In this document: in pieces, positions 3,069 through 46,483 of the stretch
Layout of the letters: each line of letters begins with the position of its first letter
Numbering within the stretch: position 1 is the stretch's first letter
From: Desulfobacterales bacterium
GTDB taxonomy: Bacteria; Desulfobacterota; Desulfobacteria; Desulfobacterales; JAHEIW01
Direction: 5' to 3'
DNA: 64,000 nucleotides
Assembly (NCBI GenBank): GCA_030066985.1
Contig: JASJAN010000011.1
Location: forward strand, 1 to 64,000
Notes under the pieces: model-generated
Seen by the model: the letters and a program-made list of their open reading frames with translations, nothing else
Databases searched by the model: none
What the model was told of the DNA's origin: nothing
Program-made: the position numbers and the translations under genes

Positions 3069-3107
3069 AGGGTTTTTCCAGCTTCTGTTAACCGTTTTAA
3101 GTAAGCG

Positions 3108-4421
3108 TTAATCTAATTTTTCGTCTTCAATTCGAATCAGCATTGTCGGCTGGCTGACCACATCCAAACGGTCGATTTCAGCCAGCGCTTTTTGGACATC
3201 CGCTTCTTTGGCCTGGTGACTGACCATAACAACCGGCACAGACCCATTGGTTTTCCTTCCTTTTTGCTGCATCGATTGAATACTGATGTCATTTTGGCCC
3301 AAAATTCCGGAGATGGCCGACAATACACCCGGCTTATCAAGCAACGCAAAACGAAAATAATAATGGGTGATAATTTGATCCATTGGCATGATGGTGATGT
3401 TTTCAATATGCTCTCTTTGCACTGAAAGGGCTGGAATGCGGCGCGTCGTTCCGGCCATTAGGTTACGGGCGATATCCACCGCATCACTGATGACGGCACT
3501 GGCAGTGGGCATCATGCCGGCGCCTCGGCCATAGAGCATGATATCCCCGACCGCATCACCGGAAACCATGACGGCATTTACTGTGCCGCTCACACTTGAA
3601 AGCAGGTTGTCAAACGGAATCATGGTTGGGTGAACCCGGGCCTCTACCTGGTTGCCTTTGTTTTTGCTGATAGCCAACAGCTTGATACGATATCCAAAAT
3701 GCTCTGCAAATTCTACGTCCAGCGGTGTAATTTTTGAGATGCCTTCAATGTAAACGTCTGGCAGGTTAATGTTCATTCCATATGCCAACGCTGTTAAAAT
3801 AGCGATTTTATGCGCTGTGTCGATTCCATCGACATCAAGGGAAGGATTGGCTTCCGCATAGCCTTTTTGCTGCGCTTCCGCCAAGGCTTCGTCAAACGGC
3901 ATTCTCTCGTCGGAAATTTTAGTTAAAATATAATTACAGGTCCCGTTGAGAATACCGGTCATTGAATGGATCTGATTGGCAACCAATGATTCGCGCATCG
4001 ATTTGATGATCGGCATACACCCGCCTACTGCAGCCTCGTATGCCAGATCAACGTTTTTCTCTGCAGCCGCCGCAAACAGCGTATTGCCCTGACTGGCCAA
4101 CAGCGCTTTGTTGGCCGTAATCACCTGTTTGCCGTTTTCTATGGCTTTTAAAATAAGTTCTTTGGCAATGCCTTCGCCGCCAATCATTTCAACGACAATA
4201 TCGATGTCGGGATCATCAACGACCGCCTGGGCATCTGTGGTCAACACACCAGGTGCAAACGAAAGCCCTCGGTCTGTTTCGATATCAATATCGGCGATCC
4301 GTTTGAGGTGCAGCGTCGCGCCCAGCCGTGAGGCAATCACCGGATAGCTTTCAAGCAGTAATTTTGCTACCCCGGTGCCCACAGTGCCGCAACCAAGCAA
4401 ACCTATGTTTATCGTTTTCAT
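3108..4421 (-). CDS. hom: Homoserine dehydrogenase with C-terminal ACT domain
   Basis: Hom reduces aspartate semialdehyde to homoserine. The N-terminal Rossmann motif is INIGLLGCGTVGTGV. The substrate domain contains ITANKALLA, NGTCNYILTK and the catalytic-region sequence ANPSLDVDGIDTAHK. Residues about 355-437 form an ACT domain (FALLDKPGVLSAISGILG), normally the site of threonine feedback inhibition. At 437 residues the length is typical. The ATG at 4421 is preceded by AAGGAG. It is followed by thrH, so the two make homoserine and then its phosphate. Confidence 0.95.
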   Translation of the reverse strand: MKTINIGLLGCGTVGTGVAKLLLESYPVIASRLGATLHLKRIADIDIETDRGLSFAPGVLTTDAQAVVDDPDIDIVVEMIGGEGIAKELILKAIENGKQVITANKALLASQGNTLFAAAAEKNVDLAYEAAVGGCMPIIKSMRESLVANQIHSMTGILNGTCNYILTKISDERMPFDEALAEAQQKGYAEANPSLDVDGIDTAHKIAILTALAYGMNINLPDVYIEGISKITPLDVEFAEHFGYRIKLLAISKNKGNQVEARVHPTMIPFDNLLSSVSGTVNAVMVSGDAVGDIMLYGRGAGMMPTASAVISDAVDIARNLMAGTTRRIPALSVQREHIENITIMPMDQIITHYYFRFALLDKPGVLSAISGILGQNDISIQSMQQKGRKTNGSVPVVMVSHQAKEADVQKALAEIDRLDVVSQPTMLIRIEDEKLD

Positions 4422-4485
4422 TTAAATTACTCCTTTATCTTTCGATCTAAACATTTTTGGTCATTTTCGGTTCTTCAGATTTATT

Positions 4486-4651
4486 GCTACTGGCTTCTTG
4501 CTTCTGGCTGCCGACTGCTGACAATTTGGCATGTTTTGCGGGCGGGGATAAACCCCGCCCCTACAAGAACGATCAAACATTTTGGTGTAGGGGCGGGCTT
4601 AATGCCCGCCCGCTGACGTAATAAACCAGCAGCCAGTGGCCGGGAGCCAGC
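4486..4651. repeat. Composite GGGGCGGG inverted-repeat element, copy 1
   Basis: The intergenic region between alaC and hom holds nested inverted repeats. The inner part has two 28-base arms, from GCGGGCGGGG at 4539 and up to CCCGCCCGC near 4612, which match with about four mismatches; each arm can also fold on itself. Outside lie GGCTTCTGGCTGCC-like words on the left and their inverted form (AGCAGCCAGTGGCC) on the right. A second copy is at 42982-43150. No reading frame or transposase is associated, so it is MITE- or REP-like. Confidence 0.8.
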
Positions 4652-4652
4652 A

Positions 4653-5819
4653 TCACATCACTTTGCGGATACCGCGGATGGCCTGACTAATCCGCATCGG
4701 ATTTTCAATCAACGCAAATCGCACATATGCATCTCCGTATTCGCCGAATCCTAGACCCGGTGAAACCGCCACTTGCGCCTCTTGGATCAGGAGCTTGGCA
4801 AATTCGACCGATCCCATTTCTAAAAATTTATCAGGTATCTTTGCCCATACAAACATAGTGCCTTTGGGCGTCTGAATATTCCAACCGATACGATTGAGAC
4901 CATTCACCAGTGCATCCCGTCTTTCCTTGTAGGTATCACGGATGTTTTCAACACAATCATAAGGTCCGTTTAGGGCAATGATCGAAGCAATTTGGATCGG
5001 TTGAAAAATGCCATAATCAAGGTAGCTTTTGATGCGGCTTAAGGCGGCCACAATTTGGGCATTGCCCACACAAAACCCAACGCGCCAGCCCGGCATACTG
5101 TAGCTTTTTGACAAAGAGAAAAACTCGACACCGACGTCTTTGGCGCCTTTGGCCTGCAGAAAGCTCGGTGCCTTATAACCGTCGAACACCAGGTCTGCAT
5201 AGGCAAAATCATGGATCACCATAATGTTGTGCTCTTGGGCATATGCAACAATTTTTTCAAAAAAAGCCAAATCAACAACCTCGGTGGTGGGGTTATGCGG
5301 ATAGCTGATGGTCAACACTTTGGGTCGCGGCCAGGTGGTTTTGGTGGCCGCAAGCAGGTTCTCAAAAAAATCGGCCTCGGGTCCCAGCGGTATCCCTCGG
5401 ACATCACCACCGGAAATGATGGCTGAATATGGATGGATGGGGTAGGTTGGATTGGGCGTAAAAACGACATCCCCGGGCCGAATCGTGACCAGAATTAAAT
5501 GCGACATACCTTCCTTGACGCCAATGGTCGCAATCGCTTCTGTGTTCGCGTCGATATCGACATTGAATCTGCGCCCGTACCAGTCTGCTATGGCCATTCG
5601 CAGTTTAGTAATTCCCATTGAAGCGGAGTATCGATGGTTATGCTGTTTTTGGGCGGATTCAATCAGCTTGTCGACAATATGCTGCGGAGTTCCCAAGTCC
5701 GGATTTCCCATACCCAGGTCAATTATATCTTCGCCCGCTCGCCGGGCTTTCATTTTTAGCTCGTTGACGGTTGCAAAGACATACGGCGGCAAGCGGTCCA
5801 ATCGCGCAAATGTAAACAT
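4653..5819 (-). CDS. alaC: AlaC-type alanine/glutamate aminotransferase (class I PLP)
   Basis: The protein follows E. coli AlaC (YfdZ) closely: the N-terminal [39 protein letters not shown] and the PLP-lysine motif [15 protein letters not shown]. AlaC interconverts pyruvate/glutamate and alanine/2-oxoglutarate. I place the start at the ATG at 5819, which has GGAG six bases upstream and gives an N-terminus matching the family; a TTG 21 codons further upstream lacks a ribosome site. It is divergent from purM and upstream of hom across a repeat element. Some relatives act on other amino acids, so substrate is inferred. Confidence 0.9.
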
Positions 5820-6069
5820 CGGCTGCTCCAAATTCGGTTTGTGACGCCTGATGTCATATAACGCCTCCAGCAGGTGTCTCAAAACAACGATTTTACTTGC
5901 GATCCAGCACTTGAACCGAAAAAATTGCTTTGACTTTTATGCTGGATCGGATTAATTTTCAAGGGTTTTTCTTTAATTTTAACGAGACCTCATTAAAGCC
6001 CAGTAGCATTTTTGAACTGACCCGAATTACCGCGATCCATGTAATTGTCGCAAAACACAGGAGATCTCC

Positions 6070-7113
6070 ATGAAAGATTCGTTAACATATGCTGACGCTG
6101 GTGTCGACATAGACAAGGCCAATAAGCTGGTTGATGCCATCGGAGAGATTGCAAAAAAAACGGCGCGTGCCGGTGTCATGAGCGATATCGGCGGTTTTGG
6201 CGGTCTTTTTTCGCTAAATCTGGCGAATCTGGAAAGACCAGTTTTGGTAAGCTCGACCGATGGGGTTGGGACCAAGCTTAAGATCGCGTTTATGCTCGAT
6301 AAACACGATACCGTCGGCATTGATCTGGTGGCGATGTGCGCCAACGATATCATAGTTCAAGGTGCAAAGCCACTTTTCTTTCTCGATTATCTGTCCATGG
6401 GAAAACTCGACAATCAGCGCGCCACCGATGTCATTACCGGTATTGCTCAGGGATGCCAGTTGGCGCAATGCGCTTTATTGGGGGGTGAAACCGCTGAAAT
6501 GCCCGGGTTTTATACGGCCGATGAATATGATTTGGCCGGTTTCGCCGTCGGCGTTGTGGACAACAGCAAGATCATCGACGGAACAGAGATACGGGTTGGG
6601 CATAAGCTGATTGGCATTGCCTCCAGCGGCCTTCATAGCAACGGGTACTCTCTTGCGCGCAAGGTTTGCTTTGAAACCCTGGGTTTAAAAATTGACGAAC
6701 ACGTTGCGGAACTGGGAAGGACCATTGGCGAAGAATTGTTGATCCCCACCAAGATCTACGCTGCTGTCATTGCAGCCCTCATAAAGGACCTGCCGATCCA
6801 TGGAATCGCGCATATTACCGGTGGCGGCATATCAGATAATATCGTCAGGATTGTTCCCCAGGCTTGCAGCATACTGATTCGCGAAGAAAGCTGGGATATT
6901 CCGCCGGTTTTTGCTTTTTTGCAGCAGGGTGGAAATATCACCAAAAAGGAAATGGCCCGCGCATTTAATATGGGTATCGGCATGATTGTTGTCGTACCCG
7001 ATCATGCCGTCGTAGATGTTGTGCAACGCATTGAAGCGCTCGACGAGCGTGCCTATATTATCGGGGAAATACTTGACTGTAAAGAAACAGGCCGGCGTTT
7101 GATATGGGATTGA
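6070..7113 (+). CDS. purM: Phosphoribosylformylglycinamidine cyclo-ligase (AIR synthetase)
   Basis: PurM closes FGAM to aminoimidazole ribotide with ATP in purine synthesis. Seen in sequence: YADAGVDIDKANKLVD at the N-terminus, the glycine-rich GGFGGLFSLN, the DGVGTKLKIA motif, MCANDIIVQGAKPLFFLDY, GGETAEMPGFY and ITGGGISDNI. At 347 residues it is full length for the PurM fold. CAGGAGATCT lies just before the ATG. It stands alone, divergent from alaC, without other pur genes nearby. Confidence 0.96.
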   Translation: MKDSLTYADAGVDIDKANKLVDAIGEIAKKTARAGVMSDIGGFGGLFSLNLANLERPVLVSSTDGVGTKLKIAFMLDKHDTVGIDLVAMCANDIIVQGAKPLFFLDYLSMGKLDNQRATDVITGIAQGCQLAQCALLGGETAEMPGFYTADEYDLAGFAVGVVDNSKIIDGTEIRVGHKLIGIASSGLHSNGYSLARKVCFETLGLKIDEHVAELGRTIGEELLIPTKIYAAVIAALIKDLPIHGIAHITGGGISDNIVRIVPQACSILIREESWDIPPVFAFLQQGGNITKKEMARAFNMGIGMIVVVPDHAVVDVVQRIEALDERAYIIGEILDCKETGRRLIWD

Positions 7114-7429
7114 ATATGACCCGCCACCAGAATGCAAAACGGGCCCCCCTTGGCAGACGACTGAAGGGGCTAAATAAAATTGGTCGGTTGTTCAGTTGGA
7201 TTGCGGAGGGGCAAACCAGTGGTGCGCTCTGCAAGGGGTGAGGTGGCGGTAAAACCGATACTCGGAGAGTATTGCTTCGCAAACGCAAACCGTAAAGGCC
7301 TGAGGACAAAAACCGATAGGATGACCGTAAAAATTTTCCTGCCACCCGTCGCTAAGAAATGAATCAAACGGCCTGTTTTCACATCCGGCAGGCAACCAAC
7401 ACGACTCCGGATCAACTAGTGAGAGATGT
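7114..7429. other. Gene-free stretch between purM and tsaD
   Basis: This stretch has no gene I can support. It is unusually open in several frames on both strands, but the conceptual proteins overlap each other and have no recognisable domain. It contains a perfect 6-bp hairpin (ATACTC GGA GAGTAT at 7259-7273) flanked by AAACCG words on both sides. That layout suggests a repeat element or a structured RNA rather than coding DNA. tsaD begins right after it with GAGAGATGT as its ribosome site. Confidence 0.4.
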
Positions 7430-8425
7430 ATGTATATCCTCGGTATCGAATCATCCTGTGATGAAACCGCCGCAGCCGTCGTTCAGAACGGAACCGCAGT
7501 TTTGTCATCAACGATATCTTCTCAGATGGAAGTGCATCATCGATACGGCGGCGTCGTGCCGGAACTTGCTTCCCGAAAGCATATTGAAGCCATTGTCCCC
7601 GTCGTTGCAGAGGCAATCAGCGATTCGGGCCTAAAAATCCGTCAGATCGATGCCATGGCGGTCACCCGTGGTCCCGGACTGGTCGGTGCTTTGCTGGTGG
7701 GCTTCTCGTTTGCCAAAGCATACGCTTATGGTCTGGGCGTTCCGCTGGTTGGAGTGAATCATCTGGAAGCCCACATCAACTCGGTGTTTCTGGAACCTGA
7801 CCCCCCGCCATTTCCATTTGTGGCTTTATTGGCATCCGGTGGGCATACGGGTATCTATTATGTCACCTCTCACACTGCCATTGAATTGATGGGGCAAACA
7901 CGTGATGATGCCGCTGGCGAAGCCTTTGATAAAGTTGCCAAGTTACTTGGGTTGGGCTACCCGGGGGGCGGGGTGATCGATCGCCTGGCCAAGGACGGCG
8001 ACCCGCAACAGATCGCATTTACGCGTCCGTATCTGAATAAAGCCGATTTTGATTTTAGCTTCAGCGGCATCAAGACTGCCGTTCGTCATTATGTCGACAA
8101 ACATCGAGCTGACGTGAACAGTCGGATTGCCGATATCGCAGCCGGTTTTCAGGCGGCAGTGGTGGAAGTACTGGCTTACAAGTTAATTCATGCGGCTCGC
8201 ATCAAGGATTGTGAGCATATTGCGGTGGTTGGCGGAGTGGCTGCCAACAGCGGTTTAAGACAGACCGTCCGACGAGATGCTGACCGCAGGGGGTTGAAAG
8301 TCCACATTCCTGCCGTTAACCTGTGCGGCGATAATGCCGCCATGATTGCAGCAACTGGTTTTCACTACTTAAAGGCGGGTATGCAGGTTCGGCTGAGCGA
8401 TGATGTTTTCAGCCGCAGTCGCTAA
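7430..8425 (+). CDS. tsaD: TsaD, tRNA N6-threonylcarbamoyladenosine transferase
   Basis: TsaD (formerly Gcp/YgjD) transfers the threonylcarbamoyl group onto A37 of ANN-decoding tRNAs, in a complex with TsaB and TsaE. The protein starts YILGIESSCDETAAAVV. The metal-binding NHLEAH gives His111 and His115, the same numbering as E. coli, and VALLASGGHTGIY and DAAGEAFDKVAKLLGL follow. The C-terminal GGVAANSGLR and DNAAMIA motifs are present. Length (331 residues) is normal. The partner tsaB is about 13 kb away at 21192. Confidence 0.96.
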   Translation: MYILGIESSCDETAAAVVQNGTAVLSSTISSQMEVHHRYGGVVPELASRKHIEAIVPVVAEAISDSGLKIRQIDAMAVTRGPGLVGALLVGFSFAKAYAYGLGVPLVGVNHLEAHINSVFLEPDPPPFPFVALLASGGHTGIYYVTSHTAIELMGQTRDDAAGEAFDKVAKLLGLGYPGGGVIDRLAKDGDPQQIAFTRPYLNKADFDFSFSGIKTAVRHYVDKHRADVNSRIADIAAGFQAAVVEVLAYKLIHAARIKDCEHIAVVGGVAANSGLRQTVRRDADRRGLKVHIPAVNLCGDNAAMIAATGFHYLKAGMQVRLSDDVFSRSR

Positions 8426-33938: not shown

Positions 33939-34712
33939 ATGATAACAGCAGGAATTGATTGTGGCGCCAAAAACACAAAAACGATTATCTTGCAACGAGG
34001 TCAGATTATCGGCAAAGCCATGCTCACCACCGGCTATGATCAAGATAAAGCCGTTATAGATTCCCTAAAGCAGGCAGCCGAGGATGCCGGCATTTCACGT
34101 GCCGATGTCCAAAGAATTGCTGTTACCGGATCCGGCAGGTGGGCGGTAAAAACTGCCGATGATACCATCAGTGACATCAAGGCCATGGCCAAAGGCGCCC
34201 ATTTTTTCTTTCACAATTCCCGCACCGTCATCGATGTCGGTGCCGAAGAGGGTCGGGCGGCCAAAATTGACGAACACGGCAACGTGGTGGATTACGCGAT
34301 TAATGAGAAATCCGCGGCCGGCGCCGGCACATTTATCGAAGGCATGGCCCGGGCGCTTGATGTGACCGTTGAAGAAATGGGGCCCTTGTGCCTTCAATCG
34401 GACAAAGACATCCCCATGAATGCCCAGTGCGTCATTTTTGCCGAATCAGATGTTGTTAACCTGATCCACGCCAATACCGCCAAGCCTGAGATCAGCAAAG
34501 CCATCCATGATGCAATCGCCAGCCGAATCGCTTCCATCGTCCGTCGCATCGGGATCAATGAAGATATCGTCATGTTCGGTGGTGTGGGGTACAATCCCGG
34601 ATTTATATCCGCGCTTAAAAAAGAATTGAAAGTCGATACCATCTATATCCCGGATGAACCTGAATATGGCACTGCGTTTGGCGCCGCTGTATTGGCGGCC
34701 GAAACGCAATGA
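33939..34712 (+). CDS. Orphan BcrAD/BadFG/HgdC-type CoA-substrate activase ATPase
   Basis: The protein is an ASKHA-fold ATPase of the BcrAD/BadF/BadG family: MITAGIDCGAKNTKTIIL at the N-terminus, VTGSGRWAV, VIDVGAEEGRAAKI, then INEKSAAGAGTFIEGMAR and NAQCVIFAESDVVNLI. Such proteins use ATP to pass an electron to 2-hydroxyacyl-CoA dehydratases or benzoyl-CoA reductases. The usual cluster Cys in NDKCAAGTG is Ser125 here, while Cys164 is kept, and the GGQD motif is GAEE, closer to BcrD-type subunits. GCGGAGG precedes the ATG at 33939. No dehydratase or reductase subunits are adjacent, so its partner is unknown. Confidence 0.85.
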   Translation: MITAGIDCGAKNTKTIILQRGQIIGKAMLTTGYDQDKAVIDSLKQAAEDAGISRADVQRIAVTGSGRWAVKTADDTISDIKAMAKGAHFFFHNSRTVIDVGAEEGRAAKIDEHGNVVDYAINEKSAAGAGTFIEGMARALDVTVEEMGPLCLQSDKDIPMNAQCVIFAESDVVNLIHANTAKPEISKAIHDAIASRIASIVRRIGINEDIVMFGGVGYNPGFISALKKELKVDTIYIPDEPEYGTAFGAAVLAAETQ

Positions 34713-34794
34713 TAGCTAATCTTATATGGCCGAATTCATATTTTTTTTAAATTTATTTACCAGCTTTTCGGCATCATATTTGATTATCCGGTGG

Positions 34795-34995
34795 TTTCAG
34801 GTGTCAGGTGCCACTTTACGGCCGCTGGCTTCTCGCTTCTGGCTGCTGGCCTGGACAAGCAGTCAACAAATTGATTTCCAAATCTGTTAAATTGTAAGGA
34901 TTATCGTTTTCAGGTGTTAGTCCCCCTCATTGACCCTTACATTTATCACCTGCTTGCCGCGCCGTCGCTTTAGCGAAGGCGGGATACCTGAACCT
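34795..34995. repeat. Mixed word-repeat region (CAGGTGTCAGGTG and GGCTTCTGGCTG)
   Basis: TTTCAGGTGTCAGGTG (34795-34810) is followed by GGCTTCTCGCTTCTGGCTG words (34827-34845), then a second TTTTCAGGTGTTAG (34907-34920), and CACCTG and CGCTTTAGCGAAGGCGGG at 34948-34983. Both words recur elsewhere: the first at 60604-60624, the second at 4488, 42989 and 60575. The stretch from 34713 to the next gene otherwise holds nothing I can name. Confidence 0.6.
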
Positions 34996-35347
34996 AGGAT
35001 ACTACCAGTTTTTCAAATTATTATTTGATTTAGATGCGTTATTTTGTGGATAAATATCGAACCTATTGTAATTAAACGATTTTCAGATCGGTTTTTTAGT
35101 TCGTATGATGCGCAATGGGGATATTATAACCTAAACACCCATTTCATTTATCCTAAATTTAGTGCACAGCTTCCCAATTATCTATTACAGATTCCGAATA
35201 AACAAATACAAAGTATTCCATCCCGGTGGTGATCCAGAAATGTTCAAACAAAGTCACGCGGTAGGGCATAGGTGGCTCTGAACCGTGTTTTAGACATAGC
35301 TAAAATTTGTAGATCGAATCCAATTGCGTTTTATCTTGAGGCATATT

Positions 35348-38242
35348 ATGTCCCGCTTGCTGCTGCAGGGTTTCATAAAAGATCGCCAAGCATCTCAAAT
35401 CGGATCCATTAAAAAATTAGGCATCCTGCTTCTTTTAGCCATTGGATTTCTTGTACTGGTGACTGTTCTGGCCGTGTTCGCTCTTGAGCGGATCAAAGCT
35501 AAAATTCAAGCCGATACCGGCGAGGCTCTGCAAATCGTATTACAAACCACCCACGAGTCCCTGAACCTGTGGGTGGAATCCAACAAATTCCAAATCAGAC
35601 AAACCGCAAATGACGCGACATTGATGACCTTGGTCGAGGACCAGCTAAAAGTCCCCCGCAATAAAGACACCTTGTTAAAAAGCCAAACTTTACCGAAATT
35701 GCGTAAATTTTTCAGGAGTAAAAGTGATCAGTTCGGGCAGGCCGGCAGTTTTTTTATTATTTCCCCGGATTTGGTCAATATCGCAACCATGCGTGATGGC
35801 AACATCGGGGCCAAGAACGTGATTGCCAACCAGGCCCTGGATCTTCTCAACCAGGCTTTCAAGGGTTCGGCTGTATTGGTGCCTCCGATATGGTCTGATC
35901 AGGCTTTGAAAGCATCTTCTAACGGTAAGCCGAAAAATACGCCAACCATGTTTCTGGCAGCACCCGTGAAAAATATCCAGGAAAAAATTATTGCCGTCGT
36001 TGCGCAGCAAATCGATCCTTCCGGGGAATTTACCCGACTGATTCAACTGGGGCGCATCGGTAAAAGCGGCGAAACTTATGCTTTCGGCCGCTATGGCAAG
36101 CTGCTTTCCGAAAGTCGTTTTGAAGATGATTTGCGTCGGGCTGGGCTGCTCGGTAAAAACGAAAGCAGCATTCTAGCGGTCAGCGTACGTGATCCCGGCG
36201 GTGATTTGACCAGGGGCTATTCTGCAGCGGTTCCCAGATATCAGCAGCCGCTGACCCTGATGGCCCAAGAAGCAACCAAAGGAAAAGCCGGCCTGAATGT
36301 GACCGGATACCGCGATTACCGGGGTGTGCCGGTTTACGGCGCCTGGTTATGGGATGATAAATTAGGAATCGGGCTGACCACCAAAATTGATGAAGCAGAT
36401 GCCCTCGGCCCCTATTTTGCAACACGCACGGTGATCCTGAGCGTGCTGGGGATTACGGTTTTGTTGGCCCTGGGCTCGTTGGCGTTTGCGGTGCTCATTG
36501 AGGAGCGCGCCAGTCGCGCTTTACAAAAATCCCATGACGAGCTTGAATTTCGGGTCGAGCAAAGAACCGCTGAACTGAAAGAGAACCAGGCGCGGCTAAT
36601 GGAGAGCGAAGAACGTTTTCGGGGTTATTTTGAGCACAGCCAGGTCGGTATGACCGTCACCGCACCGGATAAGGGGTGGATAGAGGTTAACGGCCAGTTA
36701 CAGCAGATGCTGGGGTATAACCTGGACGAGTTGCGCCAAATGACCTGGGCTGAGCTGACCCACCCGGACGATTTAGCAGCGGATTTGAAAAACTTCGAGC
36801 GAATGATGGCCGGTGAGATTGACGACTACGCCATGGACAAACGTTTCATCCGCAAGAACGGCGGGATCGTGTATGCGAACATGACGGTCACTTGCGTGCG
36901 CAATGAAGATGGTTCCGTTCAAAATGTCCTGGCCTCGATGCTGGATATCAGCGAACGTAAAGAGGTCGAGCAGGCTTTGTTCGAAAGCAGAGCAACTGCG
37001 CGAGGGCTGTTGGATGCCACCCAGGAATCTCTCATTCTGCTGGATAAAGAGGGCATCATAATTGCCGTAAACCAGACCGCCGCGCACAGACTGCAGCAAA
37101 AACCGGCAGAACTCATCGGAACCAACCGTTTTGATCTATTACCTGGAAATGTACGCACGTTGCGGAAAGCACATTTTGAAAAGGTTTTGCAAACCGGTGA
37201 GCCTGAAGATTTTGAAGATGTTCGGGACGAAATGATATTTCATAATATTTATTATCCGGTTCGGGATAAAGACGATGTTATCATGGGGGTTGCCATTTTT
37301 GCCCAGGATATCACCGAGCGCAAGAAGGCCGAAAAAGCCATAATGGAGCGTGAACAGCAAATCACCGGCATTCTCGATCATACCTTTGGGTTGATCGGGT
37401 TAATGAGACCCGACGGAACTGTCATTCGGGTAAATAAAGCAGCTTTGGAAATGGGCGGCATCAGCGAGACGGATATCATTGGCCAGGCCTTCTGGAAAGG
37501 GCCATGGTGGTCCCACTCAAAGGAGCTCCAGACGTGGTTGCAGGGCGCTATAAAACGGTCGGCCGGTGGGGAATTCATACGCGAGGAAACAACTCATCCG
37601 GATCCGGACGGAGAAATTCATTTCGTAGACTTTTCAATCAGCCCTATCAAAGACGACTCAGGGAAGGTAATTCTTTTGGTCCCTGAAGGATATGATATTA
37701 CCGATAAAAAGAAAGCTGAAGAAGCCATTCGCGAAAGCAGAGAGCGGCTTGATACCATCCTGAAAACCACCGCCCAGGGATTCTGGCTTAATGATCCTGA
37801 TGACAATATGATGGAAGTCAATGACGCCATGTGCAAAATTCTGGCTTTGACAAAAGAAGAGATCATCGACCGGAATTTTTTTGAATTTCTCGATGAGGAA
37901 AACAAGGAGATTGTGCATCAGCAGAATCTGATGCGCAAAAAAGGCATCCATAGTATGTATGAGATTTCGTTAATGCGATCCGATGGGCAGCAAGTCCCTT
38001 GCTTGATGAACGCCTCCCCCCTTTTAGATAAGGAAGGGAATGTTGTTGGTTCATTTGGTATGACAACCAACATCGCCGAGCGCAAGCAGATGGAAGAAGA
38101 ATTAAGACGCAATGTGGATGAACTGGAGCGGTTTAGCAAGGTTGCCTTTGGGCGGGAAAAAAAGATGATCCAGCTCAAGCAGGAAATTAACGCGTTAATG
38201 AGCCAAATGGGTCAAGGGGAAAAATATAAAATTGTAGAATGA
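35348..38242 (+). CDS. Cache-domain, multi-PAS membrane sensor without kinase domain
   Basis: The protein has TM1 (about 24-45), a periplasmic sensor of about 310 residues resembling a double Cache domain (SFFIISPDLVNIATMRDGN, YAFGRYGKLLSESRF), TM2 (about 358-384), a coiled coil and four PAS domains (about 416-535, 545-660, 670-790, 795-915). It ends in a coiled coil (SKVAFGREKKMIQLKQEINA) with no histidine kinase, GGDEF or methyl-accepting domain. The ATG at 35348 has TTGAGG upstream and replaces a TTG at 35324. The V4R protein and hybrid kinase follow closely, so it probably acts as a sensor for that kinase. Confidence 0.85.
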   Translation: MSRLLLQGFIKDRQASQIGSIKKLGILLLLAIGFLVLVTVLAVFALERIKAKIQADTGEALQIVLQTTHESLNLWVESNKFQIRQTANDATLMTLVEDQLKVPRNKDTLLKSQTLPKLRKFFRSKSDQFGQAGSFFIISPDLVNIATMRDGNIGAKNVIANQALDLLNQAFKGSAVLVPPIWSDQALKASSNGKPKNTPTMFLAAPVKNIQEKIIAVVAQQIDPSGEFTRLIQLGRIGKSGETYAFGRYGKLLSESRFEDDLRRAGLLGKNESSILAVSVRDPGGDLTRGYSAAVPRYQQPLTLMAQEATKGKAGLNVTGYRDYRGVPVYGAWLWDDKLGIGLTTKIDEADALGPYFATRTVILSVLGITVLLALGSLAFAVLIEERASRALQKSHDELEFRVEQRTAELKENQARLMESEERFRGYFEHSQVGMTVTAPDKGWIEVNGQLQQMLGYNLDELRQMTWAELTHPDDLAADLKNFERMMAGEIDDYAMDKRFIRKNGGIVYANMTVTCVRNEDGSVQNVLASMLDISERKEVEQALFESRATARGLLDATQESLILLDKEGIIIAVNQTAAHRLQQKPAELIGTNRFDLLPGNVRTLRKAHFEKVLQTGEPEDFEDVRDEMIFHNIYYPVRDKDDVIMGVAIFAQDITERKKAEKAIMEREQQITGILDHTFGLIGLMRPDGTVIRVNKAALEMGGISETDIIGQAFWKGPWWSHSKELQTWLQGAIKRSAGGEFIREETTHPDPDGEIHFVDFSISPIKDDSGKVILLVPEGYDITDKKKAEEAIRESRERLDTILKTTAQGFWLNDPDDNMMEVNDAMCKILALTKEEIIDRNFFEFLDEENKEIVHQQNLMRKKGIHSMYEISLMRSDGQQVPCLMNASPLLDKEGNVVGSFGMTTNIAERKQMEEELRRNVDELERFSKVAFGREKKMIQLKQEINALMSQMGQGEKYKIVE

Positions 38243-38275
38243 TCTTCATAAACGCCGGCATAAGGAGGTGCAAAT

Positions 38276-38803
38276 ATGTTCAAAGAAGAAAGAGAAGAGC
38301 TCAAATTCGATTGGAGCATGATTGGCAATATCGGGGAAGGGCGCCCCAACCTCGGCAACACCATGGATGTCAGCGTTTACCGGCTGATGCAGTTTACCCT
38401 CAGGGATGTGCTCATCAAGCAATTCGATGCGGAAACCGCAGATAACATATTTTATGAGGCCGGCAAACATGCCGGCAAAGAGTTTTGCAAAGAGTTGATC
38501 ACCCGCAAAGATGATTTTAATGCATTTGTGGTCGAGCTCCAGGAGTTGCTAAAAAAGCTAAAAATCGGCATTTTACGCATAGAAGAAGCTGATCTTGAAA
38601 AAATGAACTTTATGTTGACGGTTGCTGAAGATCTGGATTGTTCCGGCCTGCCGGCTAGTGACGAAACCATCTGTACCTACGATGAGGGATTTATCAGCGG
38701 GCTGCTCTCTGAATACACCGGGAAAAATTTCAGCGCCAAGGAAATCGACTGCTGGTGTTCCGGTGATAGGGTCTGTCGCTTTGAAGCCAAATCAGTTGCC
38801 TGA
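38276..38803 (+). CDS. V4R-domain (4-vinyl reductase-like) protein
   Basis: The C-terminal half has the V4R pattern: [20 protein letters not shown] followed by [18 protein letters not shown], with conserved Cys residues and CxF ending. V4R domains bind small hydrophobic or tetrapyrrole-like ligands in several families and occur in signalling proteins. The N-terminal part (about 1-100) is helical and may dimerise. AAGGAGG lies just before the ATG. It sits between the sensor and hybrid kinase genes with 33- and 11-base gaps, so it is likely part of the same operon. Its ligand is unknown. Confidence 0.85.
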
Positions 38804-38814
38804 GGATTCAGCGA

Positions 38815-41800
38815 ATGCTTAAAGTAAAAGAGGAAGATATCGATAAAATAACAGAGGTTTTTTATCTGATTCTCAAGGGTAAAAAGCCGACATCTATCGA
38901 GCTGCCTGAAGATTATCCGGACAATGAAATCAAACAGGCGGTCAGCTACATCAATAAATTCATTGCTGAGTATAACGGCGTGACAGAGCTCATTTATACG
39001 CTGGCCAGGGGCGATCTGAGTTTTGAAGCACCCAAAGGGAAAATGCTCATCCTGCAGTCGCTAAAGAATTTGCAGGCCAGTCTAAGACATTTGACCTGGA
39101 CGACCCAGCAGATCGCCAAGGGGGATTTCAATCGCGAAGTCGATTTTATGGGAGAGTTCTCAGCCGCCTTCAACAGTATGGCCCGGCAGCTAAAGAATTC
39201 CTTCACAGAACTGTCAATTATCAATCGTGTGGTGCAGGACCTGAGTGGAGAACTGGATTTTCAAAAGATGATTGAGCTCGCCAGCCAGACGCTTAACGAA
39301 ATGCTCAAGGCCCACACCCTATATATTGCACTGTATGACAAGCAGAGCCAATCGATTAGTTTTCCCTATTACAAGGCCGGCAACCAACAAAGACAACAGC
39401 CATCGATGTCCCTGGGTCAGGGATTGACCTCAAAGGTCATAGAATCGGCGCAGCCCCTGTTGTGCGGAACCTGCCAGGAACAGAACGACCAGGGTGTCGT
39501 CATTGCATCCGGCGAATGTGAGACGTATCTGGGCGTGCCCATTTTAATCGGCAAAGAGGCAATCGGTGTTCTCAGCGTGCAGCATCCCGACGCGAATCGG
39601 TACAGTCAGGATGATGTGCGCCTGGTGAGCACGATTGCCGCCAATCTGGGGATTGCCTTAGAGAATGCACGCTTATTTACCGAATCGCAAGCCGCCAATG
39701 AAGCGCTTGAAAACCGTGTCAATGAGTTGGATGACGCCCGTCTGGCCATGCTGAACATGATGGAAGATCTCGATGAGGCCCGAAATGAAGCTGAAGATGC
39801 TACTAAGGCCAAAAGCGAATTTCTGGCTAACATGAGCCATGAAATCCGCACGCCCATGAATGCCATTATGGGGATGGCGCATCTGGCTTTAAAAACTGAT
39901 TTGACGCCCAAACAATACGACTATTTGAAAAAAGTAGATATCTCCGCCAAGTCCCTGCTGGGAATTATCAACGATATCCTGGATTTTTCCAAGATTGAAG
40001 CCGGCAAATTGGATATGGAGTCCGTGGACTTCCAACTGGAGGATACACTGGACAACATCTCCACGCTGGTGGGTATCAAGACCCAGGAAAAGGGGTTGGA
40101 GCTGCTGTTTAAGACCGACCCTTCCGTACCGTCGGCGCTGGTCGGCGACCCCCTGCGCCTGAGTCAAATTCTCATCAACTTGTCAAACAACGCTGTCAAA
40201 TTTACCGATAAGGGGGAGATCGTCGTCTCCAGTGAATTGGTTGAAAAAGACGAGGAGCAGGTTACCCTAAAATTTTCGGTTCAAGATACCGGCATTGGCA
40301 TGACCCCTGAACAAGCGGCCAAGCTTTTTCAACCGTTTATGCAGGCTGATTCCTCTACTACCCGTAAATACGGCGGCACCGGTCTGGGGTTGACGATCAG
40401 CAAGCGGCTGGCCGAGATGATGGGTGGTGAAATCTGGGTGGAAAGTGAGCAGGGCCGGGGCAGCACATTTAGTTTTACCGCCAACTTCGGCCTGGGCGAT
40501 GGGATGGCTAAAAAGCAGTATAAGCCCGCTTCTACGATGCGCGGCATGAAAGTGCTGGCGGTGGATGACAACGCCACGTCAAGGGATATTCTGCAGGATA
40601 TGCTGGTATCTTTTACCTTCGATGTCACTGTGGCTGCATCCGGGCCAGAGGGCATCGCTGAAATTGAAGCCGCCAACAAAGATAAACCATTTGAGCTGGT
40701 GATCATGGATTGGAAGATGCCGGATATGGACGGTATTGAGGCCTCCAAGCGCATTAAACAGCACAGGGATTTGAGTAACATTCCAGCCATCATTATGGTG
40801 ACCGCTTACGGCCGCGAAGAGGTCATGCAGCAGGCGGAGGAGCTCGGACTCGACGGCTTTCTCCTGAAGCCGATCAGCCCTTCGATGCTTTTTGACGCCA
40901 TTATGCAGGCGTTTGGCGAAGCGCTGCCCGAAACCTCGCGAATTGCCCAAAGACATGAACAGGATGCTGAGGCGCTGAATAATCTGCCAGGCGCCCATGT
41001 GTTGTTGGTCGAAGATAATGAAATCAACCAACAGGTGGCCAAGGAAATTCTCGAAGGTGCCGGTTTAAAGATTACCCTGGCCACCAATGGCCAGGAGGCC
41101 GTTGATGCGGTCAAGGAGAATGCGTATGACGCGGTGCTCATGGATGTGCAGATGCCGGTTATGGATGGGTATACCGCCACTCGCAAAATACGCGAGTGGG
41201 AAACAGAGGTCAGAGGTCAGAGGTCAGAAGACAGAGAAAGAGGCTCAGCCCTCAGTCCTCAGTCCACAGAACTACCCATCATTGCCATGACCGCACATGC
41301 CATGGCCGGTGATGAGGATAAGAGTTTGCAGGCCGGTATGAACGGGCATGTGACCAAACCGATTGATCCGGATCAACTGTTTGCCACGCTGCAGGAATGG
41401 ATAAAGCCGAGTGAGAAACGCGTCCAGCTCCAACAAGCGGATATTGGTGCTGAGAAACCTGAGCCGGATCAGGCGGTCGAGGTAAAAGATGAGCTTCCGG
41501 CGGCTTTGCCGGGCTTTGATCTAGCAGATGGACTAAAGCGACTGCAGGGCAACAAAACGCTCTATCGGAAATTGCTGCTCAACTTTGGAAACGATTACAA
41601 CACGGTCGCAAATGACATCCGCAAGGCACTCGATGCAAAGGATTTTGATCAGGCGCACAGCCTGGTTCATAATCTTAAAGGGCTTGCCGGTAATCTGGCC
41701 GCCACGGACCTGCAGTCCGCTGCAGTTAATCTGGAAAACCTTGTCAAGGGTATTGGAAATAAAACACCATCGGCCGAAAAATTGAATCTAAAATTCTCGG

Positions 41801-42108
41801 ATCTTGAGAATGCGCTCAATCAAGCCCTTGAATCGGCTCGGAGTATTGGCGCATCTGCTCAAGAATCCGTCTGTGAGCTGTCCGATGATGAGATTGCAGC
41901 TATTCCTGCTGAATTTGCTCAAGATATTGCCAAACGCATTCGTGATGCAGCAGAGATGGGGGATGTTATGACATTGAATGCCGTTGCGGAGGAAATCAAG
42001 ACGCATTCAGATGCCTGTGAGCCGCTTAGTAAACAGATACTTCAACTGGCGGAAGACTTTGATCTCGATGGCGTTCAACAATTAGCGGATGCATTAGATG
42101 CCTGTTGA
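38815..42108 (+). CDS. Soluble hybrid histidine kinase: HAMP-like, GAF, HisKA, HATPase, two receivers, HPt
   Basis: The 1097-residue protein has no clear membrane helix. In order it has an N-terminal helical/HAMP-like part, a GAF domain (about 150-290), HisKA with His342 ([12 protein letters not shown]), HATPase ([23 protein letters not shown]), receiver 1 with Asp632 ([10 protein letters not shown]), receiver 2 with Asp777 ([10 protein letters not shown]), and an HPt domain with His952 ([14 protein letters not shown]). All phosphotransfer residues are present, so it can run an internal phosphorelay. Receiver 2 carries an in-frame insertion of about 22 residues made by a nucleotide word repeat (41205-41270). 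No output domain is present, so its final target is another protein. Confidence 0.93.
41205..41270 (+). repeat. In-frame AGAGGTC word repeat inside receiver 2
   Basis: AGAGGTC occurs three times in a row (41205-41225), followed by AGAAGAC and then a CTCAGnCCT-type array to about 41262. The three 7-base units and the whole 66-base block keep the reading frame. The encoded peptide ([19 protein letters not shown]) lies between the third helix and the fourth strand ([10 protein letters not shown]) of the receiver, where a loop can absorb it. It resembles intergenic word repeats in this window in style. Confidence 0.75.
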
Positions 42109-42183
42109 ATTTTTATTTTTTTACTTCTATACTGATTTTTCGATTGATTATCGCTCACACGGTTTTTGCCAAATGGAACCCAT

Positions 42184-42600
42184 ATGAAATCACACCAATA
42201 TTCGTTTGAGCTCAAAAACGACCTGTCCGAACTGGAAACCCTATGCCAGCATTTGAATAAATTTGGCCAGGATACCGGGCTATCGGAGGCCTGCCTCACC
42301 GATATCAATATCTGCCTGGATGAACTGTTCACCAATATCGTCTGTTATGGTTTTAAAGACAAGTTAGAGCATCTCACTCTATTTTTACTGCAGCTGAGCA
42401 AAGATGTGCTGACGGTAGTCATTGAAGACGAAGGGGTGGCTTTCAATCCGCTTGAAAAAAAAGATCCGGAAATCCCCGACGATCTGAAAGATGTCAGAAT
42501 TGGCGGCCTCGGAATACATATTGTCAGAAAATTAATGGATGAACTTCACTATGAAAGAAAAGACAGTAGAAATAAGTTGACCTTAAAAAAAAGGGTCTAA
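42184..42600 (+). CDS. RsbW-like anti-sigma factor ATPase (HATPase_c)
   Basis: This stand-alone GHKL ATPase of 138 residues has LTDINICLDELFTNIVCYGF (N-box) and VIEDEGVAFNPL, GGLGIHIVRKLMDELHYER (G1/G2). This is the RsbW/SpoIIAB pattern, whose members bind or phosphorylate a STAS antagonist. The ATG at 42184 gives a family-like N-terminus. The STAS gene follows 31 bases later. No PP2C phosphatase is visible in the window. Confidence 0.88.
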   Translation: MKSHQYSFELKNDLSELETLCQHLNKFGQDTGLSEACLTDINICLDELFTNIVCYGFKDKLEHLTLFLLQLSKDVLTVVIEDEGVAFNPLEKKDPEIPDDLKDVRIGGLGIHIVRKLMDELHYERKDSRNKLTLKKRV

Positions 42601-42631
42601 TTTTTTTGATAAAGCCGGAAAGGAATTAAAA

Positions 42632-42970
42632 ATGGAAATCGAGCACAGAGTGGAAAATGAAATCCTGATTTTTGCCATCAAAGGACGGCTGGATGCGGCA
42701 ACAGCATCAACAGCAGAAGACACCATAAAAGAAACAATGGCGGATGATACCAAGCAACTGCTGTTTGATCTGAGTGCGCTTGAGTATCTAAGCAGTGGTG
42801 GCTTGCGCGTTATTCTGGGGGCTGCTAAAGAAATCAGGCGCCGGGAAGGTAAAGTAGCACTTGCCGCTCTAAAGCCGTATGTTTATGAAATTTTTGAGGT
42901 CAGCGGTTTCACGGCCATGATCCCCATCAAAGATACTGTTGAAGAAGGTCTCCAAGACCTAGCATCGTAG
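42632..42970 (+). CDS. STAS-domain anti-sigma factor antagonist
   Basis: The 112-residue protein is a single STAS domain: IFAIKGRLDAATAS, LLFDLSALEYLSSGGLRVIL, then KVALAALKPYVYEIFEVSGF. The Ser just before GGLR is at the phosphorylation position of SpoIIAA/RsbV. Its partner kinase is the preceding gene. Together with the hybrid kinase it suggests partner switching at the end of this signalling operon. Confidence 0.92.
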   Translation: MEIEHRVENEILIFAIKGRLDAATASTAEDTIKETMADDTKQLLFDLSALEYLSSGGLRVILGAAKEIRRREGKVALAALKPYVYEIFEVSGFTAMIPIKDTVEEGLQDLAS

Positions 42971-42981
42971 AAAAGCGATGC

Positions 42982-43150
42982 GTTTCTGGCTACTGGCCGC
43001 TGGCTTCTGGCTGCCGACCATTGATCATCTGGCACATTTTGCGGGCGGGGATAAACCCCGCCCCTACAAGTTCGATTAAACGTTTTTGTGTAGGGGCGGG
43101 CTTAATACTCGCCTGCCGATTGAATAAGCCGGTTGCCAGCCGCCAATGCC
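42982..43150. repeat. Composite GGGGCGGG inverted-repeat element, copy 2
   Basis: This copy matches 4486-4651 over most of its length: GGCTTCTGGCTGCCGAC, TGGCACATTTTGCGGGCGGG, then TGTAGGGGCGGGCTTAAT. The right inner arm has decayed (ACTCGCCTGCCG instead of a clean CCCGCCCGC), and the outer right arm reads GTTGCCAGCCGCC. It separates the STAS gene from the convergent GNAT gene and slightly overlaps the latter's stop. Confidence 0.8.
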
Positions 43151-43593
43151 TAATTGATAGCTTTCTTTAAATTGATAAACGCGCTGCGGTCAAAGCCAAG
43201 GGTTTTGAAAAAGGAAAGCAGATCGGTTGAATCCCAGCGGACGGAGGTATAAACTTTTTCAATACCCGCCGCCTTATAAATTTCAAATATTTTTTGGGCC
43301 ATTTCAGCCCCGATACCCTGGCCCATGAATTCGGGATCCACTCCCACGGTCGCAATCCAGGCACTTTTGGTTTCACCAAAACCGGCTGTCAGGATATAGC
43401 TGATCATAAAGCCCACGACTTTGCCTTGATGTTCGGCCACATAGCACGCTTCCTCGCCATTTTGGGCATGCCCCTCCACCACTCTTTTAAAATCCGGTTC
43501 TACCGGACGGCGTGTAATAGCGGCGTAAATTTGGGTAATCGTTTCTGCATCTTCCACTTGTAAACGTCTGACTTGAAAATTCTCCACGGGCAA
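43150..43593 (-). CDS. GNAT-family N-acetyltransferase
   Basis: The 147-residue protein has the GNAT fold: RRLQVEDAETITQIYAAI at the start, GKVVGFMISYI as strand 4, ATVGVDPEFMGQGIGAEMAQ as the acetyl-CoA-binding motif A (QGIGAE), then YTSVRWDSTDLLSFFKTLGF. The substrate cannot be inferred. The start is TTG at 43593 or GTG at 43587; the latter has better spacing from AAGGA. It lies downstream of the DUF2080 gene on the same strand. Confidence 0.87.
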   Translation of the reverse strand: MPVENFQVRRLQVEDAETITQIYAAITRRPVEPDFKRVVEGHAQNGEEACYVAEHQGKVVGFMISYILTAGFGETKSAWIATVGVDPEFMGQGIGAEMAQKIFEIYKAAGIEKVYTSVRWDSTDLLSFFKTLGFDRSAFINLKKAIN

Positions 43594-44051: not shown

Positions 44052-44282
44052 ATCTGTCATCGAAAAGGCGATCGTAAGATCACCTTAGGTATTGAAGTGG
44101 AGTCGATCACCACCCAAGCAGCGGTGGTCGAAGACGGCTGGCTGCCGGCCGGTGCGGTGAAATCGACCTAATGGTGGTCAGCGTTCTGGAAACAAAAATG
44201 GGGCATGCCATCGAGGTATCTGAAAAAAACCCGGCTCATAGGAACCATCGGGGCGGCCTTGATTGCCAGCTCACAGAAATAA
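44052..44282 (+). pseudogene. Decayed remnant of a BcrAD/HgdC-type activase
   Basis: After a stop at 44049, one frame reads ITLGIEVESITTQAAVVEDG to a stop at 44169. This matches the N-terminus of BcrAD-type activases (GIDvGSiTTK). A second frame from 44171 reads VVSVLETKMGHAIEV, and a third from 44235 reads LIGTIGAALIASSQK to a TAA at 44280, which matches the family C-terminus. The middle of the gene, including the cluster Cys region and ATP motifs, is missing. It is a gene with a large internal deletion and two frameshifts. It ends two bases before the tmcB stop. Confidence 0.7.
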
Positions 44283-44283
44283 A

Positions 44284-45621
44284 TTAATCTTGGTTTTCGG
44301 GATCCAGCTTGAGGTGGTCTGGCACAATCATGGATTCGACAATGATCTCCTTGAGTGATAGGGCTTTGATGTTCAGCTCAAATTCTTCACCCAGATCATT
44401 AATCTGGTCAAAGCAATTGTGGCAGGGCGTGATCACGATTTTAGCGCCGGTCTCTTTGATTTGATCGGCCTTTAACTTGCCGGATGCCATGCGGTAGGGT
44501 TTATAGTCCGGGCCCATGGGCATAATACCACCCCCGCCGCCGCAGCAATGATTGTGTTCCCGGTTGGGGGCCATATCCCTGAAATCTTCGGCAATGTAAG
44601 GAATGATCTTGCGGGCATGCTCCCACAGGCCGCCGTTGCGCGACACGTTGCAGGGGTCTTGGTAGGTGATCGGTTCTTTTATTTTTTTGTCGGGATCGAT
44701 CTGGATGCGGCCGTCGCGCAGATATTCATGCATCAACTGCACATAATGCTTAATTTTAACCGGCGGTTTACCATCCGGGTAACCAGCCATATAGGGGCCT
44801 TCAAATGCCATCGAGCGGTAGGCATGACCGCATTCGGTTATCAGAACATACTGGGCGTTTAGCTCCTGGGCTTTGTCATATACATTTTTGACTTGTTTAC
44901 CGGCCAGCTTGCGGTTGCCCGCAAACATCGGCAGATTGGTGCAATCCCAGCCAAAGGTCGGCATGGTCCAGCTTTCTTTGGCGGCCGCAAAAATGATTGC
45001 CGCATATGAAATGTCCTGAGGGTAATAAACCGGTTCGCGCGGGTTGACGGTGTACATGTATTTGGTATCGGGCTGGTCGATGGGAATGTCCACCCCTTTG
45101 TAATCATCTTCGACCTCTTCAACCATCCACTCACAGGTGTCGACGAGTTCTTCAACCGGTATGCCCATATGATTTCCCGTTTTGTCGCAATGGTCAGAAA
45201 AATAAGCCAATTGCTTGGGCGTGATGCCCTGGGAGTGGCAAATGCTGCGGGTAATGGTAATCATGGTGGCCACATCGATGCCAAAGGGGCAGTACATTGA
45301 GCAGCGTTTGCACATCGTGCATTGCAGCCAGGCGATTTGGTAGCATTTTTTCAAAAAAGCGCGGTCCACCTTGCCTTTGCGCCGGTACATCTCACCTAGC
45401 GTGTGTCTGAACTTATAAGCGGGGCTTAGATGGGGGTCCCGCTCATTGGCCACGTAAACAAAACAGCTTTCAGCGCACAGACCACAGCGCGAGCAAATGC
45501 TCAGCCAGGTTTTTATACGGGCGCCATCGTTGGCCTTCAATATGGCGCGCACCTGGTTGACATCTACCGGTTTGTCGGTATCATCCTCGTATTCAAACTT
45601 CTTTTCGGCAATGTCTGCCAT
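44284..45621 (-). CDS. tmcB: TmcB-like HdrD-type Fe-S protein
   Basis: The 445-residue cytoplasmic-side protein has two 4Fe-4S motifs near the N-terminus (CSRCGLCAESCFVY and CTMCKRCSMYCPFG), then two CCG-type regions. The second is canonical (DPCNVSRNGG, HCCGGGGGI, CHNCFDQ) and can bind the noncubane-type cluster of heterodisulfide reductases. The first lacks the CC pair. Overall it matches TmcB of the sulfate reducer transmembrane complex, which links periplasmic cytochrome c3 to the cytoplasm. CGGAG precedes the ATG. tmcC lies upstream on the same strand. Confidence 0.85.
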   Translation of the reverse strand: MADIAEKKFEYEDDTDKPVDVNQVRAILKANDGARIKTWLSICSRCGLCAESCFVYVANERDPHLSPAYKFRHTLGEMYRRKGKVDRAFLKKCYQIAWLQCTMCKRCSMYCPFGIDVATMITITRSICHSQGITPKQLAYFSDHCDKTGNHMGIPVEELVDTCEWMVEEVEDDYKGVDIPIDQPDTKYMYTVNPREPVYYPQDISYAAIIFAAAKESWTMPTFGWDCTNLPMFAGNRKLAGKQVKNVYDKAQELNAQYVLITECGHAYRSMAFEGPYMAGYPDGKPPVKIKHYVQLMHEYLRDGRIQIDPDKKIKEPITYQDPCNVSRNGGLWEHARKIIPYIAEDFRDMAPNREHNHCCGGGGGIMPMGPDYKPYRMASGKLKADQIKETGAKIVITPCHNCFDQINDLGEEFELNIKALSLKEIIVESMIVPDHLKLDPENQD

Positions 45622-45802: not shown

Positions 45803-46483
45803 TTACCATGATCGGGCTCCTCTCCGCCCACCCATCTCAAAGCCGATAAACGCCCGGGTGAAAAAGAAAAGGATCATGTGTGCCAACTTGGTGATCGGGA
45901 TCAGAATCAACAGAATTTGACTGAATACAATATGCAAGATCAGCATCACTTCATATGGCCCCCATTGATGATAGGCCAGGAAACCAGAAATAAACGGCAG
46001 CATGGTGATCACCAGCAGCGTGTAATCCCAGGCACTGGTTAAGATTCTGACCTCAGGTCTGATTCGACGACGCACAATTAAAAACAGGGCCGCAGCAATA
46101 AAAACCAGGGTCAACCCGTCGGCCCACCCGTCGGGCAGAGACCACAGGGTGATGCCGAAAGCTTCCTCCCATAAAAAAATGTGGGCGCTTAAAAACAACG
46201 GCACAGCCACCAGCGACAGATGAAAGATAAAAGCGACAATCGAAAAAACCGGCTGCTGCCGCATAGAGGCGCTGGCAAAGGGGATGATCCAGTGAACAAT
46301 GGATCGCAATCCCCAGTCCGCATTGAAATGATTGTAAATGACGCGATCTTTTTTACGACTCAGGCGAAATAAGAAAGCCATTCGGATAAGCAGCCCGCCG
46401 ACAAAAAAGATAAAGGTAAACCAGAGGGCCGGCCCGGTTAAAAATTCATAAATGCTGTTCCAGTTTAAATTTGCGTTTGGCAT
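45803..46483 (-). CDS. tmcC: TmcC-like membrane cytochrome b (NarI-related)
   Basis: The 226-residue protein has five to six transmembrane helices, with a NarI/TmcC-type heme b layout: conserved His in RSIVHWIIPF, FIFHLSLVAVPLFLSAHIFL, LAYHQWGPYEVMLILHIVF and TKLAHMILFFFTRAFIG. In the Tmc complex this subunit carries electrons across the membrane between TmcA and TmcB. tmcB is downstream; tmcA (tetraheme cytochrome c3) and tmcD are not in this window. Confidence 0.82.
   Translation of the reverse strand: MPNANLNWNSIYEFLTGPALWFTFIFFVGGLLIRMAFLFRLSRKKDRVIYNHFNADWGLRSIVHWIIPFASASMRQQPVFSIVAFIFHLSLVAVPLFLSAHIFLWEEAFGITLWSLPDGWADGLTLVFIAAALFLIVRRRIRPEVRILTSAWDYTLLVITMLPFISGFLAYHQWGPYEVMLILHIVFSQILLILIPITKLAHMILFFFTRAFIGFEMGGRRGARSW

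Follow-up and report, generated by a model that had tools for sequence, protein, structure and literature searches.

Introduction

Why should one genomic region hold a complete activase gene that stands alone and, about 10 kb away, what looks like the ruin of a second one? The window analysed here, a stretch of 64,000 nucleotides from a Desulfobacterales bacterium, is part of contig C11 of a genome (G000) that consists of 81 contigs and is 97.8% complete. Activases of the HgdC family are homodimers with a [4Fe-4S] cluster, and they deliver low-potential electrons to an enzyme of the 2-hydroxyacyl-CoA dehydratase/benzoyl-CoA reductase family (HGD-D). HgdC-type activases couple this electron transfer to ATP when they serve dehydratases, as BzdPQ does for BzdNO. 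An activase without a partner enzyme, such as the "orphan" encoded at 33939, therefore raises the question of what it once served, and the remnant raises the question of whether both belonged to the same system.

Results

A Degenerate Activase Gene Next to tmcBC-Like Genes

The remnant, called act3 here, is surrounded by the following genes.

43150..43593, minus strand: GNAT acetyltransferase, a conserved marker dividing the bzdPQ side from the act3 side
44076..44282, plus strand: act3 pseudogene, remnant of an HgdC-type activase, 207 bases
44284..45621, minus strand: TmcB/HmcF-like FeS protein, its stop separated by one base from that of the convergent act3
45803..46483, minus strand: TmcC membrane anchor, over the TmcC model cut-off

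TmcC reaches 257.1 with its model (cut-off 240), and the B subunit at 44284-45621 stays below both of its cut-offs, scoring higher with HmcF (534.4 of 750) than with TmcB (396.6 of 735).

The stub begins with AAG at 44076, where the related genome G002 has ATG at the matching site. Its N-terminal frame runs for 31 codons up to the stop TAA at 44169-44171. A second piece in another frame, VVSVLETKMGHAIEVSEK, spans 44174-44227, and a third piece, RLIGTIGAALIASSQK, returns to the first frame and ends with the stop TAA at 44280-44282. The second frame shift consists of one extra base in the A7 run at 44223-44229. Compared with the intact act3 of G002, to which its DNA is identical at 77% over 79 bases and at 69% over 98 bases, the stub lacks about 600 nt of central coding sequence including the region for both cluster cysteines, and the 207 bases left cannot encode an activase protein. 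A full-length ASKHA ATPase (PF01869/TIGR00241) is not present at this site, and a PF01869 search of the whole genome gave six matches, none of them at 44 kb, so that the stub went unreported.

Taken singly the pieces are weak (tblastn E-values of 1.6e-4, 0.003, and 0.096 in a search over the window). However, their frame scores against an intact activase are 77 and 55, and none of 2000 dinucleotide-preserving shuffles came as high as the best frame (top shuffle 56) or as the sum of the two best, 132 (top shuffle sum 80). The homologous N- and C-terminal stretches are collinear and lie at the orthologous site. Mismatches between the stub and G002 are commonest at third codon positions (7/13, 6/12, and 10/17), and the intact act3 genes of G002 and G005 show this more strongly (12/15 and 23/36). 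Although the numbers are small, the third-position excess in the stub agrees with selection having acted on the gene during some of the time after the two lineages separated. Its identity is settled by intact activases that occupy the same slot in relatives. By homology and position, the stub is a dead HgdC/BcrAD-type activase gene, and the pseudogene is a case of ordinary gene loss.

The initial annotation had described this stretch as the pseudogene of a second BcrAD/HgdC activase whose two termini are joined with two frame changes. Homology at both ends, the damage, and the intact genes in the slot of relatives bear this out; both frame changes are genuine, as are the two termini. Of the boundaries given for it, 44052 and 44282, the end is right and the start lies about 24 bases too early.

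The act3 Slot in Relatives

A TmcB protein search of the named genomes yielded 44 loci, of which 36 could be evaluated, the other eight being omitted for having fewer than 1500 bases downstream. Four of the 36 (L011, L012, L013, and L033) carry an intact activase that is convergent with the TmcB-like gene and 70-75% identical to the act3 of G002. Among the six evaluable loci with a TmcB of at least 73% identity, four have an intact act3; the other two, L010, by gene order the genome of G001, and L050, have none. At L050 (6001-6924), the TmcB match ends at residue 322 of 445 though the sequence runs on, possibly a broken gene. In G001, a member of the same genus, the slot is a clean gap of 14 bases where the window has 260. 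The gene loss next to tmcBC that had been proposed for the window is confirmed by these intact, convergent act3 genes.

In G002, a single contig holds the order GNAT - dehA - dehB - act3, where dehA encodes 369 and dehB 423 amino acids. Contigs C51, C296, and C381 of this genome share exact 121-base ends, and joining them gives a continuous order of sensor - AlgH-like - bzdP - bzdQ - flavin/FeS - signalling cassette - GNAT - dehA - dehB - act3, in which the names sensor-like and AlgH-like are our presumption. In G002, the contigs with act3 and with TmcB were examined for an end overlap and have none, which leaves the linkage at that point unsupported. A second act3 N-terminus in G002, next to a run of N, was ascribed to assembly and disregarded. 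The arrangement GNAT - dehA - dehB - act3 recurs in G055, from another family, and the remainder of that contig shows no TmcB.

The act3 product of G002 scores well over the models for its family (TIGR00241, 288.5 with a cut-off of 125.4; PF01869, 235.1 with a cut-off of 31.5), and both Cys motifs are present in act3 of G002, G005, L011, L013, and L033. Among solved structures, DehB of G002 matches HadB best (E 5e-77), and DehA matches BzdN (E 6e-50) ahead of HadC (E 1e-45). As both stay far below the HadB and HadC equivalog cut-offs (303 of 750 and 195.8 of 700 bits), dehAB is assigned, as a predicted pair, to the HGD-D family (PF06050) only. For the same locus in relatives an intact gene and its partners had been anticipated, and these are act3 and, as a possible partner, dehAB.

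Whether dehAB ever stood in the window's lineage is less clear. The pair adjoins act3 in G002 and the more distant G055 only, and the other act3 genes near TmcB are solitary, so the window's ancestor may never have held it; fossils of dehA or dehB were not found in the window. The activase might even have been solitary beside tmcBC at all times, serving some other enzyme, with dehAB inserted later in G002 and only the activase lost here. The four intact act3 genes without dehAB at L011, L012, L013, and L033 speak for this, as do G070 and G211 (apparently the genome of L011), where the start of act3 lies beyond GNAT from bzdPQ with no dehAB between. On the other hand, the sister genome G002 and G055 of another family share GNAT - dehA - dehB - act3, which is easier to understand as an older state that was lost repeatedly. 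We give an always solitary activase slightly less than an even chance.

The Orphan Activase as a Predicted BzdP

On the other side of the GNAT gene, the window contains:

33939..34712, plus strand: BzdP ortholog (the "orphan" activase), with NEKS instead of NEKC
34713..35323, no strand: no remnant of bzdQ or of the flavin/FeS oxidoreductase gene (838 aa) that occupy this site in G001 and G002
35324..42970, plus strand: signalling cassette of PAS protein, V4R protein, hybrid kinase, HATPase_c_2 protein, and STAS protein

When 242 genomes of the order were searched with the orphan, orthologs (E <= 1e-70) were obtained from 30. A second activase follows them in G001-G005 and G012, and that of G001 exceeds the cut-off of the bzdQ model TIGR03192 (403.8 vs. 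380.2). Directly before bzdP, a BzdO over the curated cut-off is encoded in G036, G067, G069, G146, and G179, a BzdO 88% identical to that of G146 in G167, and a BzdO homolog of 51-52% in G076, G166, and G182. The BzdO of G146 has the solved BzdO as its best PDB match (E 3e-163), and the BzdN of G146 scores just under its cut-off (449.4 of 453.8). In other families, the orphan ortholog sits in a bzdN-O-P-Q operon, and the orphan itself is an ortholog of the activase gene directly behind bzdO. Since its orthologs in relatives lie behind bzdO and before bzdQ, the orphan is assigned as BzdP, from either a bzd-type benzoyl-CoA reductase or an enzyme closely related to it, for example a tetrahydronaphthoyl-CoA reductase (PMC12016498).

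The first presumed cluster-ligand Cys is replaced by Ser in the window and is Cys in the other 29 of the 30 BzdP-like proteins; the second Cys motif is kept. Alignment places the Ser at the Cys of 1hux and 4eht that we take to be a ligand of the bridging [4Fe-4S] cluster. The orphan was examined for selection more relaxed than in its orthologs, and none was seen: dN/dS is 0.12 against G002 and 0.20 against G001, compared with 0.19 between G001 and G002 (dS 0.66-0.93), and private changes affect 6 of 144 columns in the orphan vs. 4 of 142 and 9 of 147 in the relatives. Five neighbouring genes of G000-G002 gave dN/dS values of 0.03-0.13, and bzdP lies above nearly all pairs, indicating weaker constraint on bzdP than on its neighbours in each of the three genomes. 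The orphan bzdP does not look neutral by these measures, and there is no sign that it decays faster than in relatives.

In G002 the signalling cassette is flanked by the flavin/FeS gene and GNAT; G001 does not have it at this place. The hybrid kinase (38815-42108) contains, in frame near residue 796, a short purine-rich dispersed repeat (41203-41236), to which numerous sites in G000-G005 match over about 33 bases. Beside GNAT, at 42971-43152, lies an intergenic repeat that recurs at 4480-4636 (81.5% identity) and also matches G002. Recombination between intergenic repeats was considered as a cause of deletion; the repeats are present, junction evidence is not, and such a mechanism is not claimed.

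Loss of bzdNO, bzdQ, and the Flavin/FeS Gene

BzdO was searched for in 23 genomes, 22 of which have bzdP (G055 does not), and eight further bzdP genomes lie outside this search (G076, G079, G138, G166, G167, G182, G183, and G203). No BzdO over the curated cut-off exists in 17 of the 22. In 16 of these 17, bzdQ nevertheless stands beside bzdP, with no stop in the matched stretch and with both Cys motifs each, the exception being the window's genome. In the BzdQ list of 30 rows, those of G079 and G000 are BzdP itself (30-31% identity); all other 28 contain bzdQ, and of these G069, a genome with BzdO, is the only one whose match includes a stop. The contig of G079 ends at bzdP, and its bzdQ state is uncounted; in G129, G203, and G141, the second motif with its Cys is present though the pattern missed it. 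The flavin/FeS gene accompanies bzdQ in 11 of the 17 BzdO-less genomes, and a short piece of it is found in a 12th. Fossils before bzdP correspond to BzdO residues 384-430 in G003, BzdO 298-353 in G199, and BzdN 74-217 in G070.

Two loci deserve mention in their own right. At L201 (G069, 5098-8083), bzdO is broken up into two overlapping frames and there is a stop in the bzdQ match, possibly a freshly broken operon. At L199 (G155, 2824-7234), a different HGD-D pair (30-32% identity) lies behind bzdPQ, possibly a swap of the catalytic partner.

In the window, a search for a bzdQ fossil returned the orphan (E 2e-32), the stub (0.023), and otherwise matches with E of at least 0.6, none of them in 34713-35323, a segment without DNA similarity to G001 or G002. 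The 2.5 kb before 33939 contain no bzdNO fossil. No ortholog turned up in the rest of the genome either: the best BzdO score (73.9 bits) is below the cut-off of 448.6, no bzdQ ortholog is among the activases found, no flavin/FeS ortholog is among the matches listed (best listed 42%, mid-protein only), and DehA has no match. The only clear PF06050 gene lies on contig C18 and is 39% identical to DehB. A weak PF06050 match on C9 was rejected as a dehydratase, as it sits in an ORF that starts like what we take to be a universal-stress-type protein. The genome therefore does not hold all four of N, O, P, and Q, N having been judged via PF06050 and DehA.

The tree of BzdP+BzdQ joins the window and G002 as sisters (support 0.994). 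As G002 keeps bzdQ, the flavin/FeS gene, and act3, the loss of all three falls on the window's own branch, and the loss of act3 in G001 must be a second event. Four changes (Fitch) are needed to explain BzdO presence on this tree, a count that depends on several weak nodes and on states partly set by assumption. BzdO was coded as unknown for G079, G183, and G012, as present for G076, G166, and G182 (the 51-52% homolog), and, judging by the locus only, as absent for G138 and G203.

Persistence of bzdPQ in so many genomes could also mean that the module, often together with the flavin/FeS gene, was re-employed for another low-potential enzyme, a second role that is now collapsing in the window's genome. 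The open bzdQ frames beside bzdP in 16 of the 17 genomes would be expected then, as would the low dN/dS values in the BzdO-less G001-G005 (bzdP 0.05-0.19, ten pairs; bzdQ 0.06-0.14, nine pairs and one undefined) and the different HGD-D pair after bzdPQ in G155. However, the partner enzyme is still hypothetical, the flavin/FeS gene lies next to bzdQ in only 11 of the 17, and the bzdP values of G000-G002 exceed nearly all of the neighbour controls, i.e., constraint is weaker. Moreover, several dS values are greater than 1, and a recent loss of bzdNO would likewise leave a low dN/dS. Such re-employment seems unlikely to us, and slightly less likely still is its fullest form, in which a BzdPQ pump outlived BzdNO in many genomes because it was selected for another enzyme and the window shows this reused pump cut to one subunit with one ligand replaced.

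Discussion

Very probably, the stub is a dead activase gene and the orphan is a BzdP left behind after the loss of bzdNO and, subsequently, of bzdQ and the flavin/FeS gene. The ancestor of the stub would have been an ATP-hydrolysing activase of the HgdC kind that fed an HGD-D enzyme, placed between the GNAT gene and tmcBC-like genes. It was destroyed by three changes: an internal stretch was deleted, the start codon was lost, and a run of A gained one base. According to the tree, bzdNO would have been lost earlier, in a wider group; the losses on the branch of the window's own genome would be those of bzdQ and the flavin/FeS gene, the latter perhaps an electron feeder. In this genome, the reductase system is in the process of being dismantled. 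The unexpected part is a BzdPQ module with open frames after the reductase is gone. That the gene is intact and the stub an artefact of sequencing or assembly is highly improbable, for although a single extra homopolymer base, one of its two frame changes, is a common type of error, about 600 nt are absent, the start codon is altered, the flanks run into GNAT and TmcB, and a DNA search of the genome gave no second act3 copy.

The stub and the orphan had been taken together as signs of one ring- or hydroxyacyl-CoA-reducing pathway that was lost or moved. Losses did occur around both, but two systems are involved, a bzd-type benzoyl-CoA reductase for the orphan and, for the stub, an HgdC-like activase as it stands behind an HGD-D pair in G002 and G055. 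Loss of the reductase holds; a move finds no support, as orthologs of the dehydratase pair, bzdO, bzdQ, or the flavin/FeS gene were not found in this 97.8% complete genome.

With its scores over TIGR00241 and PF01869 and both Cys motifs, the act3 product of G002 resembles the HgdC and HadI activators (PDB 1hux, 4eht), unlike the window's copy, a stub of 207 bases. The dehAB pair of G002 can be likened to HadBC (PDB 3o3m) but differs in scoring far under the equivalog cut-offs. The relatives' N-O-P-Q order and their BzdO and BzdQ over the cut-offs recall the class I benzoyl-CoA reductase BzdNOPQ of Azoarcus/Aromatoleum (PDB 8s02), from which the window differs in having P alone, with a presumed ligand Cys changed. 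Class I reductases are described as common in facultative anaerobes, and BzdPQ as using ATP to drive electrons into BzdNO (PMC11971306). Genes of bzd type are also reported from anaerobes that degrade aromatics, among them the sulfate reducer Desulfotomaculum gibsoniae with the class I reductase genes bzdNOPQ (PMC4148979), and NaphS2 and N47 with bzdNOPQ-like ncrABCD/THNCoA reductase genes in four-gene sets (PMC12016498). Compared with these sets, the window has bzdP only. BzdPQ kept without BzdNO is not described in any title or abstract found.

Within one order, a graded record of the decay of a radical ring-reducing or dehydrating system can be followed, from a full operon through a reductase-less operon and a single subunit to a stub and a clean gap. 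Finding bzdP or bzdQ in a genome is no evidence for benzoyl-CoA reduction by this enzyme, as a BzdO over the cut-off is missing from 17 of the 22 genomes searched that carry this bzdP. One may also ask why BzdPQ outlives BzdNO so often, and if the reductase-less BzdPQ is functional, its target enzyme becomes a testable question.

The pathway as a whole is not lost. The ring-cleavage hydrolase Oah and the dehydrogenase Had mark the benzoyl-CoA route after ring reduction, and both persist on contig C18 of the window's genome (Oah, 564 bits with TIGR03200, cut-off 464; Had, 458 bits with TIGR03201, cut-off 339), so that the suggestion of a lost pathway was too strong. Oah is over the cut-off in at least 19 of the 30 bzdP genomes, G000-G005 included. 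Probably, a different reductase serves in this genome. C18 also carries a further activase and a lone HGD-D gene, 12-13 kb from oah and had, with the second HGD-D subunit absent alongside. At C18:29496-45600 (L127, L220), oah, had, the activase, and the single HGD-D gene form one region, which also contains what are presumably an indolepyruvate-oxidoreductase-like pair and a phenylacetate-CoA-ligase-like gene.
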